DNA from: Triatoma infestans
Taxonomy: Eukaryota > Arthropoda > Insecta > Hemiptera > Reduviidae
Assembly: GCA_011037195.1 (NCBI GenBank)
Contig: JAAEAF010001967.1
Location: 62,001-126,000, forward strand
Length of the DNA stretch: 64,000 nucleotides
Direction of reading: 5' to 3'
Shown here: positions 4,132-55,307 of the stretch, in pieces
Layout: the number at the start of each line of letters is the position of its first letter
Numbering within the stretch: the first letter of the stretch is position 1
Program-made: the position numbers and the translations under genes
The notes under the pieces: generated by a model
Database searches by the model: none
Told to the model about the DNA's origin: nothing
Seen by the model: the letters and a program-made list of their open reading frames with translations, nothing else

Positions 4132-4486
4132 CTAGAAGCGGGCTCTAGCGCCTATCTTGGCCAGGGCGTCGGCCATCTCATTCCCAACATGCCCTGGCAC
4201 CCACCAAAGCACAACTTTGTTCCTCCTGCCTAAAGTTATTAATTTATCTACGCATTGCCAGACCATTTTAGAGTTGATAACTGATACATTCAATGCTCTA
4301 ATAGCTGCTTGACTATCGGAAAGGATAACAATCTCCTGGTTCCTATATCCCCTATCGAGGTTAAATTGTACACATCTTCCAATAGCGTATATCTCCGCCT
4401 GGAAGATGCTGGGAAATTTACCCATCGGTTCCGAGTGCTTGATCCTTGGACCGACCACCCCCGCCCCAGTCCCCTCGAGGGTCGCA
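4132..4486 (-). pseudogene. LINE RNase H domain, truncated
   Basis: C-terminal RNase H domain of a non-LTR retrotransposon polyprotein, the part that degrades RNA in RNA/DNA hybrids in I/R1-type LINEs. Visible motifs in order: an upstream glycine-rich GTGAGVVG strand, FQAEIYAIGR with the catalytic Glu, ILSDSQAAIRAL with the catalytic Asp, and WVPGHVGNEMADALAKIGA with the conserved His and Asp. The first catalytic Asp, normally just upstream, is lost with the 5' truncation. The frame ends in a stop at its 3' side and the downstream part lies in another frame, so this is a dead copy. A similar domain lies at 13084-13920. Confidence 0.85.
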
Positions 4487-4800
4487 TTCCTAGTTTAAAG
4501 GAAATCAATTATAATCTTTTACTATATTACAAAGATCTATATTCCTCTAATGTATATTAATATTATATAGATGGCAGAATCATATATTGTACCGAAATGT
4601 TTCCTTAGAGGAGGAAAGATTAATGCTACTATTTCAAAAGAACGTACTAAAATTCAATTTTCCTGGGAAAATGTTTCAAATAAAAATGATAGGCATTTAT
4701 GTAGGAAGAAAATAAAGGGAGTTTAAAGAAAATCGTTGGTGATGATATTCGAGAAAAACACTAAATATTGGGGAAAAAAAAATTCATAAAAGAAATTGAG

Positions 4801-6137: not shown

Positions 6138-6422
6138 CCTATTTTCCGTGATAGCCTGCTTCTTTTTGTGGTCATCTATCGGTTTCAGGCGTACGCCCAT
6201 CATTAGGATGCGTTAGCCAAACAGTGTGATAACACAGACTTGCATAGAGCAAATTCAGTTTATACACTCTGTATATTTGTCTGTGTTATCACACTGTTTG
6301 ACAAATGGATCCTGATGAGATGGGCGAACGCCCGAAACTGGTCGATGACCACAAAAAGAAGCAGGCTATCACGGAAAATATCTCTGATGCTTTCCAGCTC
6401 TGCGGAACCAAACACAACAACA
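6138..6422 (+). mobile_element. Hammerhead foldback retroposon, copy A
   Basis: 285-bp element with inverted arms (left about 6143-6250, right about 6285-6390) and an asymmetric 3' tail GCGGAACCAAACACAACAAC. Flanks ATTTCCATCAAA (6126-6137) and ATTTCCACTAAA (6423-6434) form a 12-bp target duplication that differs by a TC/CT swap. The reconstituted target matches the DL block ending in AAATTTGG. Both arms encode the CUGANGA...GAAA motif, but here both are mutated (CUAAUGA in the left arm, a GA insertion after the core in the right). Confidence 0.85.
6307..6347 (+). ncRNA. Hammerhead ribozyme motif, degraded (copy A right arm)
   Basis: CUGAUGA at 6312-6318, helix II GGGC/GCCC with loop GAAC, GAAA at 6334-6337, CUGG instead of the symmetric CCGG, GUC at 6341-6343 and GAUG at 6344-6347. 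The extra GA after the core and the weakened helix III suggest poor or no activity. Confidence 0.5.
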
Positions 6423-6962
6423 ATTTCCACTAAATTTGGAATTCTAGTATTTATCGTATATTAATTTTATATAAATGGTAGAACCATACATTCATTTATA
6501 ATGAGATGGTAATTTAATATTTGAAGGAAAACTAAACGCTAGTGTTATTGCACAAACCACCCCAAAATAATCAATTTTTCCGTGGGAGAAATGTTTCAAA
6601 GTCAAAGGAAATGATATATACATTTATGTAAGTAGGCAGTATACAAAGTTTAATGGAAATTGATTCCAGCCTTATTCAAGAAAATCGCCAAAAAAACGGG
6701 AAAAAACATTCAGTAAAAGTCGCACTTATATTATGATTTGGCTCGAAATTTCCACGTCAGAGATGTTGTGGAGGGAGTATACAGGCGAAATGTTTAATTT
6801 CAGCTTGCTAAGATTTTTCATTTTTGCGATATGTATGTGCAGACAAACCACGTACACTAATCTATAGCTAGAAACCATTTTTTTCATACTCAGGCGGACC
6901 TCAACCATTTCTAAAATATGATACGATTGCAATACTTCCCCTTATTAAGAGGAAGTAAAAAT

Positions 6963-8101: not shown

Positions 8102-8531
8102 GTTGGTATTTTATCCGTCGTACCCCATGCATATTCCTTTTATTCCTGATCGGTTTCGGATTTTCATTCATCATCAGTGCAAATTCAACATGTTCTTGTA
8201 GAGAGTTCACTACAACGCAATGTTTCTGCTACACTCATACTTGTTGGTCTGTTGATTGTGCGGGAGGTTATAAGTTTACGCTATTATGTGTGTATGTTTA
8301 GTAATAGTAACATGACCTTATAATCTCCCACACATTCATACAAACAATAAACCAAAAGTGTGAGTGTAACAGAAACATTGCATTATAGTGAACTCTTTAC
8401 ATGAACTTGGTGAATTTGCTCTGACGATGGATGAAAATCCGAAACCGGAACAGGAATAAAAAAAGGAATATGATGCTACGACGGATAATATACCGGATGT
8501 TATCCAGTATTGCGGACCTATCCACACATTC
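8102..8531 (+). mobile_element. Hammerhead foldback, second subfamily (copy B)
   Basis: 430-bp element with arms of roughly 150 bp, left about 8105-8250 and right about 8340-8500. It is flanked by AATAAAAGTG at 8092-8101 and 8532-8541, a 10-bp perfect duplication. Its 3' tail (TTGCGGACCTATCCACACATT) parallels the tail of the other foldbacks. The sequence differs from copies A and C-G outside the ribozyme-like core and tail, so this is a separate subfamily. Confidence 0.75.
8416..8456 (+). ncRNA. Hammerhead-like motif, variant helix II (copy B right arm)
   Basis: CUGACGA at 8421-8427, one U, then GGAU-GAAA-AUCC (8429-8440), GAAA at 8441-8444 and CCGG. Helix II sequence differs completely from copies A and C-G but still pairs, capped by a GNRA loop. 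The expected U before the cleavage base is A here, so this copy is probably inactive. The left arm carries the same motif on the minus strand at about 8145-8180. Confidence 0.5.
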
Positions 8532-8860: not shown

Positions 8861-8998
8861 GAGTGTGAAAACAAAGGTTGCTCCGCACAAGTCTGTGTTG
8901 TCACACTGTCTGACAAACGCATCCTGAAGATGGGCGAACGCCCGAAACCGGTCGATGAGCACAAAATGAAGCAGGCTACCACGGAAAATGTCTCTGAT
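8861..8998 (+). mobile_element. 5'-truncated hammerhead foldback (copy C, one arm)
   Basis: A 138-bp copy holding only the right arm of the family. Both sides carry GAAAATTTTCA (8850-8860 and 8999-9009), an 11-bp direct duplication. The loss of the left (5') arm with an intact duplication is what retroposition by target-primed reverse transcription produces, and is hard to explain for a cut-and-paste DNA transposon. Confidence 0.75.
8920..8957 (+). ncRNA. Hammerhead ribozyme, type I, intact core (copy C)
   Basis: Helix I CAUC (8920-8923) pairs with GAUG (8954-8957). Core CUGAAGA at 8924-8930 fits the consensus CUGANGA. Helix II is GGGC-GAAC-GCCC, preceded by an extra U. GAAA is at 8944-8947. 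Helix III is the self-complementary CCGG, then GUC at 8951-8953 with predicted cleavage after the C. A loop-less CCGG helix III is too short to be stable in one molecule and would favour action as a dimer, as reported for short-stem hammerheads. Confidence 0.7.
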
Positions 8999-9339
8999 GA
9001 AAATTTTCATTTCGATTAGCTTTTAATTCTCTTCATTTTCTTGGTGTAGTTCAGTATTTTTCAGTATTGAATGATATGTTTTTTGGTAATTATTTTATAT
9101 ATGTGATATTATCCATCATTGCGGACCCAACCACATATTCAACAATTATTTTCTACTTTATCTTAATGGGAAGTAAACAAAAATCAATTTTTTTTCACTT
9201 CTAAAAACCACTTTTTAAGACTTAGGGCACTCCACAATGTGTATTCAAGGTGAAAACACGCAAATCTGACACGACCACAATACTTATTAGTAAGAGAAAG
9301 TAATAAAAAACTAACTCAGTTGCCTTTAATATTATTTAA

Positions 9340-13080: not shown

Positions 13081-13533
13081 CATTCATTGGGGAAGGACCA
13101 AACCCTGCAATGGTGTTTCTCCCACCATTTCACAAACTCTACAAAAGTATCTGGCATGAGCCCTATATTCGTAGAAGTGTCGCCTTAAACCACAGTATCC
13201 ATATCTGGAAGCTAGACACAGATCTACAAAGACAACCAAAGACACACCAAAGCAGGCTCGGAATCCATGAAGGAGAGAGAGGTGCAAATTTTTGGCAAAC
13301 CTATCTACCTCTTCATTCTCCAAGATTCCCATATTTATGACCTCGTACCCACACGGAAAAAACACATACTTAGAGGAAGAATATTCCAGTCTTCTAGAAC
13401 CATTCAGTATGAAATTGGAAGTGAAGATACATGAATTCGTGCTTTTAACGCGGCAGTTGGCTGTCCGAGTTGATACAAACACCTTGTAAGTTATCAGAGA
13501 CATTTTCCGTGGTAGCCTGCTTCATTTTGTGGT

Positions 13534-13571
13534 CATCGACCGGTTTCGGGCGTTCGCCCATCTTCAGGATG
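13534..13571 (-). ncRNA. Hammerhead ribozyme, intact core (copy D left arm)
   Basis: On the minus strand: CAUC (13571-13568), CUGAAGA (13567-13561), U, GGGC-GAAC-GCCC, GAAA (13547-13544), CCGG, GUC (13540-13538), GAUG (13537-13534). All conserved core bases are present. Confidence 0.7.
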
Positions 13572-13678
13572 CATTTTGTCAGACATTGTGATAGCAGAGA
13601 CTTTCACAGAGCAAATTTTGTTGATACGCAAATTTTACTCTGTACAAATTTTATGTTGTCACACTGTCTGACAAAACG

Positions 13679-13716
13679 CATCCTGAAGATGGGCGAACGC
13701 CCGAAACCGGTCGATG
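13679..13716 (+). ncRNA. Hammerhead ribozyme, intact core (copy D right arm)
   Basis: CAUC 13679-13682, CUGAAGA 13683-13689, U, GGGC-GAAC-GCCC, GAAA 13703-13706, CCGG, GUC ending 13712, GAUG 13713-13716. It is the mirror of the left arm, so a transcript of either strand holds one sense and one antisense ribozyme that can pair with each other. Confidence 0.7.
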
Positions 13717-13929
13717 ACCACAAAATGAAGCACGCTACCATGGAAAATGTCTCTGATGCTTTCCAGCTCTGCAGAATCAACCACCACAACAACCTTTGAA
13801 GTTAGTATTACGTACCCGTTCATCTACAATAGAACAGAAATAGCAAAAATCTCAGCCTGGAAAGCAGTGGTCCATTCATTAAGAAATATTGCCATCAGAA
13901 ATAGGCTCATCACAAAAAACAAAAAACTT

Positions 13930-15636: not shown

Positions 15637-18100
15637 TAATAATGTTTATTTCTTAGCAAAATATATACATATTTTAACAATTTAAAATAAAAGATAAAAC
15701 ACTATTCTGCTTGGAGAGTTCTCCGTCTGCAGAGTTGCTTTTTATATAGATAACTTAAACGCTTCAACTAAAAAAATAAAAAAATTTTTTTTCTCTTTTT
15801 TTTTTTAAATAATTAAAATGACAAATAAAATTCAAATTTCAAGAAGGCGTTAACATTAAAACTAAATACAAAAACTAAATACAGTGCAACCTTATTAATC
15901 ATAATTAAACTCCTTTATTAAAAAGGTTCTATAACTCAAGGCTTCTTTCAAAAAACAACACAGATTCAACCAATTTACACCATTTAAAACATCACACAAT
16001 TCACTTTCGGTGAGCTTATGTTTAGCAAAATAATTAAATCTGTATGGGGCGAGGATTGGACAGACAGCAATAAAGTGTACAATATCCTCAACCTGTTGTA
16101 AATTGCAAAGCGAGCACAGCTGACATACCTCACTGTTGAAAGGTCTGTAATTCAAACTTAGTGATTCAGTTCTTGCTTTCAGTATTACCCTAGCATCCTC
16201 AAAAGATCTGTTTGCTAAATAATCAATATTATACCTTAATTTAGGATAAATTTTGATATTTTGCTTGTCTTGCTTTTAATTCACACTTTAACTTTTCATC
16301 AGTTTCTATTTTGGTTAATAGATTATTTAAGGTTACCTTCCACTGTTCGACAGCATCTCCACAAAATTCATTCAATGTCATTTGATACTGAGTACAGAGA
16401 TGCTTCCACTCTGTAAACCAGCCAATGTTTTTCTCAATAATATTAATAGCAATCAATTTAGGTAATCTAGAGTCCGGTAGTTTAAGTAATTTTAATTTGT
16501 ATTTAAAATGTAAACCTAAAGTATATATATACATACTATTGAAACCTAATTCCAAATTGAAGATGTAATTTGAGGTATTAACAGGGAGCTGAAATAATTT
16601 TTTGATAAAAAATCTCTGCAGCCTTTCGACGTACTTTCTATAGCCCCATACTTGAGCTGCATAGCACATAATGGTTCTCGATGTAGCGTAAAATAATTTA
16701 TACTTTGAATTCGTTGGAATATTAGGATTAGCTATTAATTTGGACCAAGTTGAGTTTAATCCAAATTTAGCCACTTTCAACTTTTCATTTAAATGTGTGT
16801 CAAATTTTAACGAAGGTGTTAAATGGACTCCTAAATATTTATAATGATCAACAATTTCTATGTTTTGGTCATCAAATTTCCAATTCTCATTTTTCCCGTG
16901 TCTTCCCCCTTTTGTTCTGCAGATTAAAATTTGTCTAAATTTACTATCAGACCCCAAGTTTTACAATAATTACTTAGTGCATTTATCATTTGTTGTAGAG
17001 TTGCCGGTTTATCCGAAATCAACACTATATCGTCTGCGTATAACAGTACGCGAACATTTGTATTTCCGACATACAATCCACCGCCTATTTCATCTGCCAA
17101 ATCATTTAAATAAATTGAAAAGAGCGTTGGGGACAGAAGACAGCCCTGTTTAACACCAGTGAATGTGTTAAAAAATTCTGACATCCCTTGTTCACTCCAA
17201 ACAGCCGCTCGGGTATCGTCGTATAGTCTCCGTATTGTATTTATAAATTTGATGGATAGGCCGATAAGTGCTAATTTATAAAATAATAAATTTCTCGATA
17301 TACAATCAAAGGCGGATTTAAAATCTACAAAGAATTAGTAAACTTTGTTGTGTCCCTTCTCTTCTAATTTCAATTTTACTAAATTAACAAGACTGAAAAT
17401 ATTATCTGTTGTAGAGTATTCTTTCCTAAATCCCGCCTGATATTCGGATATTATATTGTGATTATCGAGCCACGACGTAAGTCTGTTTAACAGTAGGCCT
17501 GTAAATAGCTTCGCCTCCACATCGATAAAAGATATGCCCCTAGAGTTTGACACCAGTTTCATATCACCTTTTTTATGCAACGGGAAAATTAATGCATCTT
17601 TAAAATTTGAGGGGATATTCCCAGTTTCGTATATTTTATTGAAAAGCGAAATTAATTTATTCCACAAAAAATTTTTTGCATTCTTAAAAAACTCAGATGG
17701 AATTCTATTAATTCCTGGTGCTTTTCCATTTTTAGCCTTATTTAATACCGCCTGTAGTTCGGAAATTGTAAAATCGTTATCCAGCGCAGGATCGGTTATT
17801 GAAGGTTCAGCATATAGTACCACCGGCGCAACTACACATGGATTATATAGCTTCTCAAAAAATAATTTAAATTCTTCAGCTCCAATGTTAATACCACAGA
17901 TGTAAGTCTTTTTTTTTAAATATTTTAATCTTCTCCCAGAACTGTTTGGAATCTTTAACACTTTTGAAATTATCTATTACTGAGTTATAAAATTCGGATT
18001 GTTTTGACTGACAAAGCTGTTTATATTTCTTTTTACCGTCCACATACATCTTTTTAATTGCTATAGAGTTAGTTTTCCTATACACATTTAGCAAATTAAA
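15637..18100 (-). mobile_element. LINE-B1: 5'-truncated non-LTR retrotransposon inside a DL repeat
   Basis: About 2.46 kb on the minus strand: part of ORF2 from before the reverse transcriptase to the C-terminal zinc knuckle, then a 3' UTR ending in ATT repeats at 15628-15645. Endonuclease and ORF1 are absent. The 5' junction lies near 18090-18110, where DL sequence (TTCAAATAAAAGTGATA on the minus strand) gives way to coding sequence. No clean target duplication could be read, so the junctions are approximate. Confidence 0.8.
15895..18100 (-). pseudogene. Non-LTR reverse transcriptase, decayed
   Basis: Copies LINE RNA into DNA at the target site. Motifs in order on the minus strand: KNGKAPGINRIPSEFF (start of the domain, 17961-17335 frame), ALIFPLHKKGD, NSRGISFIDVEAKLF, YQAGFRKEYSTTDNIFSL, VDFKSAFDCI (block A), GVKQGCLLSPTLFSIYLNDL (block B), LLYADDIVLIS (YADD active site), YKYLGVHL (thumb), and a C-terminal C-x2-C...H-x4-C knuckle at 15895-16155. 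Lesions: frameshift at an A run near 17909-17917, a TAA just before block A near 17335, and frameshifts near 16945 and 16245. The catalytic residues remain but the gene is dead. RTE/CR1-like clade is likely; a tree would be needed. Confidence 0.85.
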
Positions 18101-22612: not shown

Positions 22613-22895
22613 GTATCAGAGATATTTTCCGTGATAGCCTGCTTCTTTTTGTGGCCATCCACCGGTATCGGGCGGTGGCCCATTATCAGGATGTTTTTTT
22701 ATCAAAACAATGTGATAACATAGAACGCAAATTTGCTCTATGATAGTCTATGTTATCATCACACTGTTTTGATAAAAACATCCTGATGATGCGTGAATGA
22801 CCATAAAACCGGTATGGTGAATGGCCATAAAATGAAGCAGGCAATCATGGAAAATATATCTGATGCTTTACAGTTCTGTGGAACCAACCACAGAT
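22613..22895 (+). mobile_element. Hammerhead foldback retroposon, copy E
   Basis: 283 bp with arms left about 22615-22725 and right about 22740-22860, and the tail GTGGAACCAACCACAGAT. It is flanked by a perfect 10-bp duplication GGATGCATAA (22603-22612 and 22896-22905). Both ribozyme cores are decayed (CUGAUAA on the left arm, disrupted helix II and GAAA on the right), so this is an older copy. Confidence 0.85.
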
Positions 22896-26048: not shown

Positions 26049-26098
26049 ATTATTTTATTCAGAGACATTTTCCGTGGTAGCCTGCTTCATTTTGTGGT

Positions 26099-26136
26099 CA
26101 TCGACCGGTTTCGGGCGTTCGCCCATCTTCAGGATG
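26099..26136 (-). ncRNA. Hammerhead ribozyme, intact core (copy F left arm)
   Basis: Minus strand: CAUC (26136-26133), CUGAAGA (26132-26126), U, GGGC-GAAC-GCCC, GAAA, CCGG, GUC (26105-26103), GAUG (26102-26099). All consensus positions are kept. The right arm at 26275-26312 is the same except CCGA for CCGG in helix III. Confidence 0.7.
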
Positions 26137-26274
26137 CGTTTTTCAGACAGTGTGACAACACAGACTTGCACAGAGCAAATTCAGTTTACACAGTGACTCC
26201 GTTCACACACTGAGTCAGTGTGTAAACTGAATTTACTCTGTGCAAGTCTGTGTTGTCACACTGTCTGAAAAACG

Positions 26275-26312
26275 CATCCTGAAGATGGGCGAACGCCCGA
26301 AACCGATCGATG
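26275..26312 (+). ncRNA. Hammerhead motif, helix III variant (copy F right arm)
   Basis: CAUC 26275-26278, CUGAAGA 26279-26285, GGGC-GAAC-GCCC, GAAA 26299-26302, then CCGAUC, where one base breaks the symmetric helix III. GAUG follows at 26309-26312. Confidence 0.55.
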
Positions 26313-26514
26313 ACCACAAAATGAAGCAGGCTACCACGGAAAATGTTTCTGATGCTTTCTAGCTCTGCGGAACCAACCACCAGCAAACAATTATTTATTC
26401 CTTTTTTTTTTTTGTAATTGCAATTTTTTTTTTTTGGTAACGCATTTTTTAATAAACGAATCAAACTTTTTAAATAAACGATTAACTAAATAAATATTAA
26501 TTGCAGTATTACAA

Positions 26515-30984: not shown

Positions 30985-31985
30985 AAAGACTGATGTGAAA
31001 TACTCACACTTTTTTTTATATAACACTTCACTGCTGTTAATACAACATGTTATACTCACTGCTGTTAATATAACATGTTATACTCACTGCTGTTAATATA
31101 ACATGTTATACTCACTGCTGTTAATATAACATGTTATACTCACTGCTGTTAATATAACATGTTATACTCACTGCTGTTAATATAACACTTCACAGTTTTT
31201 GCATTTGTCCTAACATTAAAATATAGAGCTAGTGGAAATGTCATTACATTTTAGTCCAGTAAGCAGCGCCAACACCTGAACAAACTAAATAACATTTGCA
31301 ATTTATCACTAACATAATTCACAGATAACCATTTATTTTATTTTATTTTTTATTTGCGAGAAAAGCGATCAAACAAATATGATGCGTTTATATCTATGCA
31401 GTTAGCACGCAAAGATTAAATAGAAAATCCCTTTGCTAGTTTCAGAAAAATCCCTCGCCCCCCCCGCAAACATTATTCTGTGTAAAAAAAAAGATCAAAC
31501 AATTCTGTTAACAGATTTTCCTTCAAAATTAGGAAATTCTATCAATGCCTATAATATACATTAATATTAATTAGGTTGTAGAATCATGAACTGTACTGAA
31601 GTAGTACTGGAAGCTTAGTCGTTACTGTTCCTCCAGAACTGCCTGCCTCCCTCCACCAAAATCAATATTCCCAGGAAAATATTACAAAGTAAAAGTGATT
31701 GGTATTTATGTAGGCGAAGTTTTAAACAAAATCTTTGTAGCCTTTTTCGAGTAATTTGCGAAAAACTGAAAATATATTCAGTAAATATAACTTCGGTTGA
31801 TGGACTATGCTTCCTTCATGGCCAAATGTGGTGGTAGTACCTAAACTGAATACTAAGTTTTAGCATTTCCTGTGATTATTATTATTATTGTTTTTTTTTA
31901 CACCTCAAAACACGTATTTTCGGTGAAACTCTAACACGATCGCAATACTTCCTCTTACCAGACGGACAGGAAAGTTAAAAGTGTT
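30985..31985 (+). repeat. DL repeat with tandem-expanded 5' region
   Basis: 5' end GATGTGAAATACTCACAC, then six 28-bp tandem units (31031-31198), then TTACATTTTAGTCCAG, TTTATATCTATGCAGTTAGC, ATGAACTGTACTGAAGTAG, CCAGGAAAATATTACAAAG, AACTTCGGTTGATGG and the 3' end GATCGCAATACTTCCTCTTACC near 31955. A full-length copy apart from the array. Confidence 0.8.
31031..31198. repeat. 28-bp tandem repeat, six units
   Basis: Units start at 31031, 31059, 31087, 31115, 31143 and 31171. Each carries CTGCTGTTAATATAACATGT plus TATACTCA; the first has a T-to-C variant (TACAACATG) and the last diverges after TAATATAAC. Each of the first five contains the 10-bp palindrome TAACATGTTA or a one-base variant. The unit derives from the DL 5' region (CTTACTGCTGTTAGCAC in other copies). 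Confidence 0.9.
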
Positions 31986-32099: not shown

Positions 32100-32385
32100 T
32101 CCGCAGAGCTGGAAAGTATCAGAGATATTTTCCGTGATAGCCTGCTTCTTTTTGTGGTCATCGACCGGATTCGGGCGTTCGCCCATCATCAGAATGCATT
32201 TGTCAAACAGTCGGATAATATAGATTTGCACAGAGCAAATTTAGTAATACACTCAATCAACTAAATCTGCAAATCTGTCACACTGTTTGACAAATGCTAT
32301 CCTGATGATGGGCGAACGCCCGAAACCGGTCGATGACCAAAAAAAGAAGCAGGCTATCATGGAAAATATCAGTGATATTTATTTT
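32100..32385 (+). mobile_element. Hammerhead foldback retroposon, copy G
   Basis: Left arm from CCGCAGAGCTGGAAAG at 32101, right arm to about 32380. The left arm here extends further than in other copies and includes the inverted form of the tail. No clear duplication could be read. The left-arm core has GAAU for GAAA (dead); the right-arm core is intact. Confidence 0.75.
32298..32335 (+). ncRNA. Hammerhead ribozyme, intact core (copy G right arm)
   Basis: UAUC (32298-32301) pairs with GAUG (32332-32335) with one G-U. CUGAUGA is at 32302-32308, then U, GGGC-GAAC-GCCC, GAAA 32322-32325, CCGG, GUC. It has the classical CUGAUGA core rather than CUGAAGA, showing natural variation at the one free core position. 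Confidence 0.7.
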
Positions 32386-33729: not shown

Positions 33730-34592
33730 CAGGGTGACGACTTTTTCTCTAAAACTAAGATAGCTAGAAAAAAAACTAAAAAATACGTGTCCCCGTAGTT
33801 TTTTGTTAGAAATCCAAATTTAATTTGCAAATTTATTTTGGTACTTCCTGAAGCGAGATACAGGCACCAACTTCATTTTTTCAAATGGGTAGGTGTGGTT
33901 TTTATTTAAGAAATAGATTCCTCTATTTTTTGTAAGAAAAATTTACTTGAACGGTTTTTTTCTGTGATATTTTACAAGTTATGACTTAAACATGATTCCT
34001 ATAAGAAATTCCAAAATGATATTATAACGGTTTTTTGATTGACTAAGAAGAAAAGTAATATTTTATTATAAATTTTACTCCTCATTAATTACAGATCTTG
34101 CTCGAACTGGCCTCCACCATTAGAGATGTATTTCTTTGGTCGTAAGGTACAAAAGGAAAAAGCATGTGTATGCATCTCTAAGGGTGGGGGCCAGATCGAG
34201 CAAGATCTATAATTAATGAGGAGTAAAATTTATAATAAAATATTACTTTTCTTCTTATTCAATCATAAAACCGTTATAATATCATTTTGAAATTTCTTAT
34301 AGGAATCATGTTTTCATTCATAACTTGTAAAATATCGCTCAAAGAAAAAAACCGTTTAAGTAAATTTTTCTTACAAAAAATAGAGGAATCTATTTCTTGA
34401 ATAAAAACCACACCTCCCCATTTGAAAAAATGAAGTTGGTGCCCTGTATCTCGCTTCTGGAAGCACCCCAAACAAATTTGCAAATTAAATTTGGTTTTCT
34501 AACAAAAAACTATGGGGGATTTTTTAGTTTTTTTCTAGCTATCTTAGTTTCGAGAAAAAGTCGTTATCCATATACCTTGGGACACCCTATAT
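33730..34592. mobile_element. Giant hairpin: foldback with about 400-bp arms
   Basis: The left arm (about 33731-34130) is the near-perfect reverse complement of the right arm (about 34170-34588). The loop is only about 40 nt. Tips: AGGGTGACGACTTTTTCTC on the left and, on the opposite strand, TATAGGGTGTCCCAAGG then AACGACTTTTTCTC on the right. The left tip is missing about 20 bp. Both arms carry ATTATAGATCTTGCTCGA/CTCATTAATTACAGATC next to the loop. Frames inside are mirror images. No transposase is present. A transcript would be a roughly 400-bp double-stranded RNA. Confidence 0.85.
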
Positions 34593-41440: not shown

Positions 41441-41683
41441 TTTTCCTTTTCCCTCTTCTTGGATTTGTTTATCCTTTGATTTGTTTATTTATCTGATTTT
41501 ATTGATTTCGTTATTTATTTATTTATTTTTAAAACCCTCATAACCCCGCCCGTCTCCACTGCAGCCCAGCCGGGCATCTGAGAGTACACTGAGCAGGGAA
41601 TATGAGTGTAACACAATGCAGGTAGTTTTAGGCAAATGTGCTTGGAGAGCATGATGCTACGCTTGATACAACTCGTTGTAGCA

Positions 41684-41980
41684 TGTAATAGGATCCGAAG
41701 AGAGGGATCCAAAGCAGAAAAAGTAACACAAACTGCCAAGGATTTACACGTTTATAGAAATCAGGTAGCGAGAGATTTAGACTGAGAGAAGAGAAGCGTA
41801 GTAGTTGGTGCTGACTCCTTGTTAACTGCTGTAAGACTGTTGCATAAACTGTTGTAGGGCCAGCTCAGCTGTATATATGCTGAGTCTCCCACTCTAGGTT
41901 GGCCTAAGTAGAGAGATTCTCAATTCTCAAATCTGAGTTTCTCTCTCTGCTTTGGATCCCTCTCTTCAGATTCTATTACA
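41684..41980. mobile_element. MITE, copy 4, intact inverted ends
   Basis: 297 bp. Left end TGTAATAGGATCCGAAGAG, right end (opposite strand) TGTAATAGAATCTGAAGAG. The inverted match extends about 35 bp through GGGATCCAAAGCAGA. AGCA on both sides (41680-41683 and 41981-41984) may be a 4-bp duplication. Interior blocks match the copies at 10666, 19405 and 27675. It is non-coding, so the transposase family is unknown. Confidence 0.8.
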
Positions 41981-42084
41981 AGCAACATGAAGTCCGGCGC
42001 TTATGTGGCGAATTTCCTAAACAGAAAATTTATTCCATTACACTCTTAAATGAATCCAAAATTTCCCCAGTCTAATTTTTTTTT

Positions 42085-53273: not shown

Positions 53274-53606
53274 TGGGGTGTACAACACCCCACTATATCT
53301 TTCTGTGTGATTTACAGAATTTGTCCTGTGTTTCCCAGGGTTTTCCCCACCATGTAAATACACTTCATTTACTGCTTATTCGTTACGCAACTCGTTCGGC
53401 ATTAGAAGTTTTTTGAAATTTCTGTAGTGTACAAGTAAAGTAATTTTGGGGTGCTTTTCACCCAGTGTGTTTTTTGGGTTTGCCACACCCCAATGTGTTA
53501 GATTAGGTTGCGTTGAGGTAAGTTTTAGTACTCAGTATAAACGTTTAATTATTATTAAATGTGACATTTATTACAGTTATTTTACTGGTTTTTAGCAAAG
53601 TAGGTA

Positions 53607-55307
53607 TGGCTTCTACTTCAAAGCAACCACTTTGTGACGGGACACCGGATGAAATCCAGAAAGTCCTATTACAATTGGAGGAAGATGAGAAAGAAGGGAA
53701 TGTCTTTTTTGGCGATGAAGATTCTGACGAAGAATCAGATAGTGTTACAGAACAAGAAGTCTCTGAAACTGAAGAAGAATGTGATGTAGAAAAGTCGCAA
53801 AAAATATGTAAGTCATCTATATTGCGAGGAAGAAATCAGTACAAATGGTGTACTGATGTTCCGTCAAAGAGAGGCAGAGCTAAGGCAAAACATATAGTTT
53901 CCCAAACCCCAGGTGCGAAAGGTGCTGCAAAAAATATTTCCACTCCCCTAGAATCTTGGAATTTACTAATAAGTAATGACATTATTTCTGCAATTGTGGA
54001 AAAAACAAACCAAGAAATTAGGAGGAATTGACATCAATATCCAGATGTCAGTCTTACCATAGAGAAACAAACGAAAAAGAAATTCGTGCTTTTATTGGCA
54101 AGTTATACCTTGCTGGTGTTAATAAATCTTCAAAGCTGAATATCGAAGAGCTTTGGTCCCCCCAATATAATGGTCATCCTTTGATTAGAATTACAATGTC
54201 GAAGAATCGATTTTATTTTTTATCCTACTGCTTGAGATTTGATGATAAAACAACTAGAGTGGAAGGAAAGTTTATAAGCTGGCACCTATAGGGAAATATG
54301 GGATATTTTCATAAAAAATTGCCAAGAACTGTACACCCCTTTTGAGCACGTGACAACTGATGAGCAATTGTTGGGGTGTAGAGGATGATGCCCATTTCGG
54401 GTATACTTGGCTTCGAAACCAGATAAATACGGAATCAAAATTGTTATGATGAGCGACTCCCGTACTTTTTACATGGTAAATGCAATGCCATATGTCGGGA
54501 AGGTGAACTGCCCGAAAGGTGAACCTGTGCCATCCCATTATGTCAAAGAATTGACGAAAATCATCCATGGTACAAACAGAAATGTGACTACAGACAATTG
54601 GTTCTCGTCCGTACAATTATTCGAACAGATGTTGACACAGTATAAACTTACCCTGGTTGGAAAATTACGTAAGAATAAAGCTGAAATCCCCCCTCAATTT
54701 TTGGTGCCCAAACAATCTGGGACGTCCTTATTCGCTTTCGACTCAAATAAAACATTGGTTTCATATTCTCCAAAACCAAATAAAATAGTACTTCTCCTTT
54801 CTACTCTTCATTATGACGATTCAATTACCGCCGTTACCGGAAAACCTCAAATTATTATGGATTACAATTCGCACAAGGGAGGAACTGACACATTTGATCC
54901 AATGTGTCATATCTACACTACAGCACGGAAAACAAGACGGTGGCCTCTTCGATTCTTCTGCGGCATGCTAGACCAAAGTGGTGTCAATGCATGGTGCTAT
55001 ATACTCTCGCCCAAATGCAACCAAAAAAAAGCGCCGTACATTTTTGCTTGATTTGGGTTACAGCCTAATCGAACCTCACCTTAGAGGCAGATCGCAAGCA
55101 GAAACACTTCGGCGGCCTCTTCGTATTACCATAGAGGACATACTAGGGGAAGTGACCCCTAGAAAAATTGAATATTTAGAAAAACAAGTTAAGTGCGTTT
55201 TCTGTCAAAGAGGTAAAGACAGAAAAACCAAAATGAGATGTTCACAGTGTAAAAGGCCAATTTGTAATGAACATAGAGCTGCGGTGTGTTATGAATGTAG
55301 CTCATAA
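53607..55307 (+). pseudogene. piggyBac transposase, disrupted
   Basis: Encodes a DDD transposase that cuts at TTAA and leaves no footprint. Start ATG at 53607 (MASTSKQPLCDGT); acidic N-terminal region, then the core domain from about 54028 (ETNEKEIRAFIGKLYLAGV, RITMSKNRFYFL), the three catalytic aspartates in MMSDSRTFYM (54455), VTTDNWFSS (54593) and KGGTDTFD (54887), and a C-terminal Cys/His cross-brace CVFCQRG...CSQCKRPICNEH ending in CYECSS at 55307. Lesions: frameshift near 54030, two small indels near 54255-54300, TGA at 54386-54388 replacing a likely CGA, and a frameshift at the A8 run 55023-55030. All catalytic residues are kept, but no full protein can be made. Confidence 0.9.

Follow-up and report, generated by a model that had tools for sequence, protein, structure and literature searches.

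The window, meaning the whole 64,000-nucleotide stretch of the Triatoma infestans contig that was analysed, has a G+C fraction of 0.28-0.35 in 4-kb steps and holds several palindromes. BLAST and nhmmer searches resolve among them a family of five foldbacks and one solo arm, with arms at 6.1, 8.9, 13.5, 22.7, 26.1 and 32.2 kb (family 1), and one foldback of the same plan at 8.1-8.5 kb. The arm profile matches the right arm of the latter palindrome (E = 4.9e-05) and leaves its left arm below threshold (E = 0.44), and we treat it as a putative diverged second family (the 8.3 element). The palindromic elements measure 277-430 bp (Table 1), and the inverted arms of the 13.5 element, at 13493-13604 and 13646-13757, are 92% complementary. 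This inventory (foldbacks near 6.1, 8.1-8.5, 13.5, 22.6, 26.1 and 32.1 kb and the solo arm at 8.9 kb) bears out an earlier, sequence-only reading of the same DNA, whose count for the first 33 kb was about seven. Adjacent direct tandem copies of the arm unit, which we assign below to the pseudo-LTR (pLTR) of Penelope-like elements (PLEs), were not found in the window by either search, direct or partial tandem pLTRs being a feature of full-length PLE copies; a tRNA scan with bacterial settings returned none.

Table 1. Elements of both families in window coordinates, with the parts of the 13.5 foldback.
Feature	Coordinates	Strand	Description	Basis
13.5 foldback	13493..13793	.	Two head-to-head inverted PLE-type pLTRs; left arm tailless (ends +68), right arm tailed (ends +104)	
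13.5 tail	13758..13793	+	AC-rich end, right arm only	End mapping; cf. PMC11167929
13.5 left target-site duplication	13481..13493	+	ACCTTGTAAGTTA; 11/13 match to right copy	1.55% of 2000 random flank pairs as high
13.5 right target-site duplication	13792..13804	+	ACCTTTGAAGTTA; first two bases overlap the called tail end	
13.5 right-arm hammerhead	13679..13716	+	CAUC-CUGAAGA-U-GGGC-GAAC-GCCC-GAAA-CCGG-UC-GAUG	Motif search and arm sequences
13.5 left-arm hammerhead	13534..13571	-	Identical in sequence to the right-arm motif	Motif search and arm sequences
13.5 right arm, presumed PLE ORF 5' end	13689..13796	+	MGERPKPVDDHKMKHATMENVSDAFQLCRINHHNNL	Translation
13.5 left arm, matching ORF start	13493..13561	-	MGERPKPVDDHKMKQATTENVSD; without tail	Translation and end mapping
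6.1 foldback	6141..6423	.	Right arm tailed (+103), left arm ends +59; flanks ATTTCCATCAAA/ATTTCCACTAAA, 10/12	
8.9 solo arm	8861..8999	+	One pLTR, tailless, ends +69; exact 12-bp duplication TGAAAATTTTCA	
22.7 old foldback	22613..22895	.	Both cores decayed; exact 10-bp duplication GGATGCATAA	
26.1 foldback	26059..26388	.	Arms of 144 nt (97% complementary), longer than in any other member of the family; core in both arms; right arm tailed; flanks ATTATTTTATTC/ATTATTTATTC	
32.2 foldback	32100..32376	.	Partial tail on the left arm (+86), right arm ends +68; duplication not found	
8.3 second-family foldback	8102..8531	.	M[D/N]ENPKP... N-terminus; ends +69/+104 set by exact 10-bp duplication AATAAAAGTG	

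Hammerhead core and predicted pairing

Exact copies of CTGANGA...GAAACCGGTC occur five times in the window (8924+, 13538-, 13683+, 26103-, 32302+) and sit in both arms of foldback elements, with no match in 100 dinucleotide shuffles of the window, which confirms the hammerhead motif as real. A descriptor of core, 0-2 nt, 4-bp stem and GAA gives nine matches in the window against a mean of 0.25 and a maximum of 2 in 40 Markov simulations; eight of the nine fall within the foldbacks or the solo arm, and all eight carry an extra U between CUGANGA and helix II, present because it belongs to the AUG start codon described below. The 6.1R arm has three extra nucleotides at this position and is not a descriptor match, and a degenerate hammerhead pattern run over viral and prokaryote contigs found 0 matches in either set. 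The sequence-only reading had named copies C, D (both arms), F (left) and G (right) as keeping every conserved element in order; with coordinates given only for D, we take C, F and G to correspond to 8.9, 26.1 and 32.2 kb, and on that reading the five exact copies fit the list, save for the extra U before helix II. Judged by eye, the whole core is kept in 6 of 11 family-1 arms (8.9R, 13.5L, 13.5R, 26.1L, 26.1R and 32.2R, counting 26.1R with CCGA in place of CCGG) and altered in the other five, so that two of the five family-1 foldbacks (13.5 and 26.1) have an intact core in both arms.

The covariance-model search that had been suggested to check the motif, run without a positive control, returned no Rfam hammerhead, an outcome that the sequence-only reading had named first among those counting against it: over the window no family matched at gathering score and none of the 25 matches at E ≤ 5 was a hammerhead, and on 121 bases of one arm a threshold of E ≤ 10 yielded Zeta-pan only (12.6 bits, E = 4.2). 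The best matches (MIR8007, mir-3149 and others) lie below their gathering scores and were set aside as long-hairpin or simple-repeat artefacts. We place little weight on the missing match because published PLE hammerheads are minimal variants without helix III (PMC6155905, PMC7761336). Covariation across the arms of the window is slight. In a sample of 12 arms (11 distinct; 22.7R excluded for its insertion), 93.1% of 87 cells in helices I and II are paired and four pairs are changed on both sides, a number reached in 14 of 500 shuffles; the two such changes in helix II (G-C to A-U and C-G to U-A) are contributed solely by the second-family foldback, through its two arms, those in helix I are single cells, and further pair types are no more numerous than in shuffles (498 of 500 as high). 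In the second family helix I is mostly lost, and the pairing of helix II is retained despite amino-acid changes, with one mismatched pair in the left arm.

Helix III consists of ACCGGU, which is too short to close on an ordinary loop; a single copy therefore forms at best one helix III pair, whereas two sense copies could pair fully. The motif thus resembles the minimal PLE hammerheads, which according to reviews may act as dimers (PMC6155905, PMC7761336, PMC6466107), in its type I form, open helix III and self-complementary ACCGGU pairable between copies, and appears to differ from them in that an additional U, belonging to the AUG, separates A9 from helix II. It is very probably the minimal, dimer-type ribozyme of PLE pLTRs, with predicted activity. 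When a 64-nt piece is constrained to the hammerhead it reaches -8.5 kcal/mol, against -11.9 for its preferred alternative fold, and RNAcofold pairs two 64-nt copies as an extended duplex (-31.2 kcal/mol) and not as a double hammerhead, so these folds do not demonstrate a dimer hammerhead.

A start codon within the hammerhead

An in-frame start codon, which the sequence-only reading had missed, overlaps the ribozyme (CUGAAG-AUG-GGC-GAA-CGC-CCG-AAA-CCG-GUC-GAU-GAC), A9 of the hammerhead being the A of the ORF start codon, and the predicted cut after GUC would fall 24 nt into the ORF (+24). Ten of the 13 arms were translated from this AUG, with 6.1L, 22.7L and 22.7R rendered as DNA only. Family-1 peptides are close to MGERPKPVDDHK(M/K)KQA(T/I)TEN(V/I)SD and continue in the longer arms as AFQLCGTNHHNN, with a stop codon in the tail of 26.1R; the second-family peptide begins M(D/N)ENPKP... 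and is interrupted in the right arm by a stop at codon 11, continuing ...DATTDNIPDVIQYCGP. The N-terminal peptide matched nothing in a protein collection, in a search requiring three shared 5-residue words, nor in PDB or Pfam. Differences among family copies show no synonymous excess (3 of 38 across 10 arms, against 20% expected), and in this lack of coding constraint the copies behave as dead insertions.

No PLE reverse transcriptase or GIY-YIG ORF was recognised among the 24 ORFs of at least 110 aa in the window, the Pfam scan covering five of them and one LINE stretch that spans two more, and no autonomous PLE was found within the window. Other coding remnants comprise a LINE reverse transcriptase in broken frame on the minus strand (16241-17973; RVT_1 at 4.5e-23 for 16241-17334), an RNase H piece on the same strand (4132-4494) and a broken transposon at 53549-55307, presumably piggyBac-like, in which 54389-55051 matches DDE_Tnp_1_7 at 2.5e-33 and 53549-54031 has no Pfam family.

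Outer ends and target-site duplications

Matched against a tailed consensus, the outer ends of the 11 family-1 arms form two groups, at +59..+72 (6 arms) and +86..+104 (5 arms), the longer ends falling in an AC-rich stretch. When set by hand at the duplication edges, the short family-1 ends lie at +59, +67, +68, +68, +69 and +70 and the long ones at +86, +103, +103, +104 and +106; the second-family ends, obtained by the duplication-edge method only, lie at +69 and +104. Each of the six foldbacks of both families accordingly combines one short arm (+59 to +70) with one tailed arm (+86 to +106). All 11 family-1 arms extend past the cut site to at least 31 nt upstream of the start codon, and the 8.3 palindrome likewise extends past it, which argues that the RNA template had not been cleaved at that point.

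Six of the seven elements are bracketed by duplications of 10-13 bp (positioned in part by eye), which support the earlier description of the elements as short retroposed foldbacks. The duplications are exact at 8.9 (12 bp), 22.7 (10 bp) and 8.3 (10 bp) and imperfect at 6.1 (10/12), 13.5 (11/13) and 26.1 (11/12 with one gap), and for these six 0.001 to 0.039 of 2000 random flank pairs score as high; around the 32.2 element no duplication was found (0.57 of random flank pairs as high). With first-guess ends the corresponding fractions are 0.004 (8.9), 0.018 (13.5), 0.051 (6.1) and 0.135 to 0.654 (22.7, 26.1, 32.2 and 8.3), so that three of the six duplications, those of 22.7, 26.1 and 8.3, depend on ends moved after looking. 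At 60-92% A+T against 65-72% for the window, the duplications are little above their surroundings and show no AT preference. At the centre of the 26.1 foldback, positions 26205-26223 read ACACACTGAGTCAGTGTGT, which may be compared with the palindromes described at inverted junctions of rotifer Penelope elements (PMC3846280).

Origin of the foldbacks

Taken together, the elements are very probably insertions of PLE 5' ends, that is, of the pLTR and the first 20-35 codons, in most cases as a pair of inverted copies placed head to head. The basis of the assignment is anatomical, with a match to PLEs in several respects. In the Anolis PLE (PAc; PMC11167929), the hammerhead lies over the start codon, the ORF begins at stem II, the cut falls 26 bp downstream, and two reverse transcription start sites bound a 30-40 bp 'tail', the farther one AC-rich and 111-118 bp into the ORF. 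The elements here share with it the start codon at stem II, C3 and G8 ahead of that codon and the AC-rich far end, and differ in the cut (24 against 26 nt) and the far tail end (near +104 against 111-118). The Pen families of A. vaga (PMC3846280) have inverted, mostly head-to-head pLTRs with an optional 31-bp tail on one of them, 8-10 bp duplications and a pLTR that includes the first codons; the present elements have the same head-to-head inverted pLTRs, tail on one arm and short duplications, although the latter measure 10-13 bp, the pLTR takes in 20-23 codons compared with 12 in rotifers, and only pLTR pairs or a solo pLTR, without an ORF body, are seen here.

PLE repeats, which the sequence-only reading had cited as a precedent for hammerheads, were an apt one. 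Its further suggestion that a palindrome with one ribozyme per arm is a less described layout is doubtful: inverted, mostly head-to-head pLTRs recur in PLEs (PMC3846280, PMC8969392), and with the hammerhead located in the pLTR, each arm is bound to carry one. The PLE literature searched, however, yielded neither a two-ribozyme layout stated outright nor foldbacks of two pLTRs alone, and hammerheads go unmentioned in PMC3846280. The elements thus look like a further instance of an arrangement already known, and less like a type of their own. Metazoan non-LTR retrozymes are similar as short type I hammerhead retroelements of comparable size and low G+C, but they are direct tandem repeats that make circular RNA (PMC7229834), whereas the copies here carry an ORF start and occur inverted in pairs or, once, singly; direct tandem repeats, the retrozyme hallmark, were not found in the window.

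How the two arms came to be joined is a separate question. Under the mechanism that seems most likely to us, the PLE protein would cut DNA on both strands, and each broken end would prime reverse transcription within the element RNA, at either of two fixed positions (~+68 or ~+104); the resulting pair of cDNAs would proceed inward through the uncleaved hammerhead toward the RNA 5' ends and then join, leaving a palindrome with a flanking duplication of 10-13 bp. On a bolder reading, somewhat less likely than not, each foldback represents two independent starts, the short site having been used at one end of a single double-strand cut and the long site at the other; the PLE complex would then be asymmetric, with one start site per DNA end, and head-to-head repeats would result from two-ended priming and cDNA joining and not from self-priming. 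The ribozyme would serve the life cycle of the parent RNA, whose tandem pLTRs would be able to pair as a dimer, and would be a passenger in the foldback relics. According to PMC11167929, the Anolis protein cuts and extends both strands, with the same reverse transcription start between strands in vitro; unprocessed RNA is the main substrate in vitro, and hammerhead cleavage required the PLE protein and was dispensable for insertion in vitro. If arms chose their ends independently at 6/13, one short and one long end in 6 of 6 foldbacks would arise by chance in about 1.5% of cases. Partner arms also differ in their upstream reach (-39/-66 in 6.1 and -31/-65 in 32.2, as aligned locally against a single arm, a measure that decay may reduce), and together with the unequal ends this favours two separate priming events.

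Self-priming, in which a single cDNA or antisense template of the same PLE uses a palindrome at the inner end to fold onto its own strand and copy it, seems to us somewhat unlikely. It has been proposed by the authors of PMC3846280 for rotifer Penelope elements, and the sequence near the 26.1 centre is by eye self-complementary except for its middle base. Partner arms are moreover alike: of the 945 ways of pairing the arms, no more than 5, counting the true one, are as close. That likeness is partly subfamily structure, and private variants common to both partners number 0 (6.1), 0 (13.5), 6 (22.7), 0 (26.1) and 1 (32.2). A hairpin copy should, however, yield equal arms, whereas the outer ends fall into two groups and are unequal in all six foldbacks, and upstream reach differs between the 6.1 and 32.2 partners as far as local alignment tells. 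The same inequality bears on a non-autonomous DNA transposon (MITE or foldback) with terminal inverted repeats, to which the palindromic form, small size and short flanking duplications would be suited. A transposase needs two matching ends, while here they are unequal in all six foldbacks, the solo arm was inserted singly with an exact 12-bp duplication around it, the duplications range from 10 to 13 bp in length and the arms carry an ORF start; we consider this origin hardly tenable.

A functional reading of the inverted layout, in which sense cleavage and sense-antisense pairing form a built-in switch, fares little better and is highly improbable. In its favour, neither arm of 13.5 or of 26.1 has lost its core, and an antisense and a sense motif do lie on the same spanning transcript; but since the arms point outward, the antisense copy precedes the single sense copy on either strand, and RNA initiated within one arm would include only the sense motif and lack an antisense partner for any switch. 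In the predicted foldback RNA the arm duplex prevails: the 303 nt of 13493-13795 fold at -206.3 kcal/mol and the 316 nt of 26059-26374 at -271.9, compared with -8.5 for the constrained hammerhead in the 64-nt piece. This comparison is qualitative because the lengths differ, and that piece itself prefers another fold. A dimer-type helix III would further need two sense copies where a spanning transcript has one, and almost half of the family-1 arms have a changed core.

In line with a PLE origin, a start codon at stem II offers a simple criterion for recognising hammerhead foldbacks as PLE pLTR pairs in raw sequence, and the unequal ends provide a genomic record of reverse transcription start positions, their short and long pairs bearing on the formation of PLE inverted repeats. 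In a genome rich in PLE pLTR pairs, such ends could decide between two-ended priming and self-priming, a choice left open in PMC3846280, and could reveal whether any template had been cleaved by the hammerhead.

Elsewhere in the window, a much larger nested palindrome at 33791-34517, with arms of 51, 105 and 144 nt that are 92-96% complementary, is unmatched by the arm profile and is perhaps a foldback DNA transposon. At 41677-41987 lies a further short foldback, whose 54-nt inverted arms are 85% complementary and separated by 203 nt, and at 31027-31187 a short palindromic repeat with a unit of about 28 bp (TGTTATACTCACTGCTGTTAATATAACA) runs head to tail, giving overlapping inverted repeats by eye.
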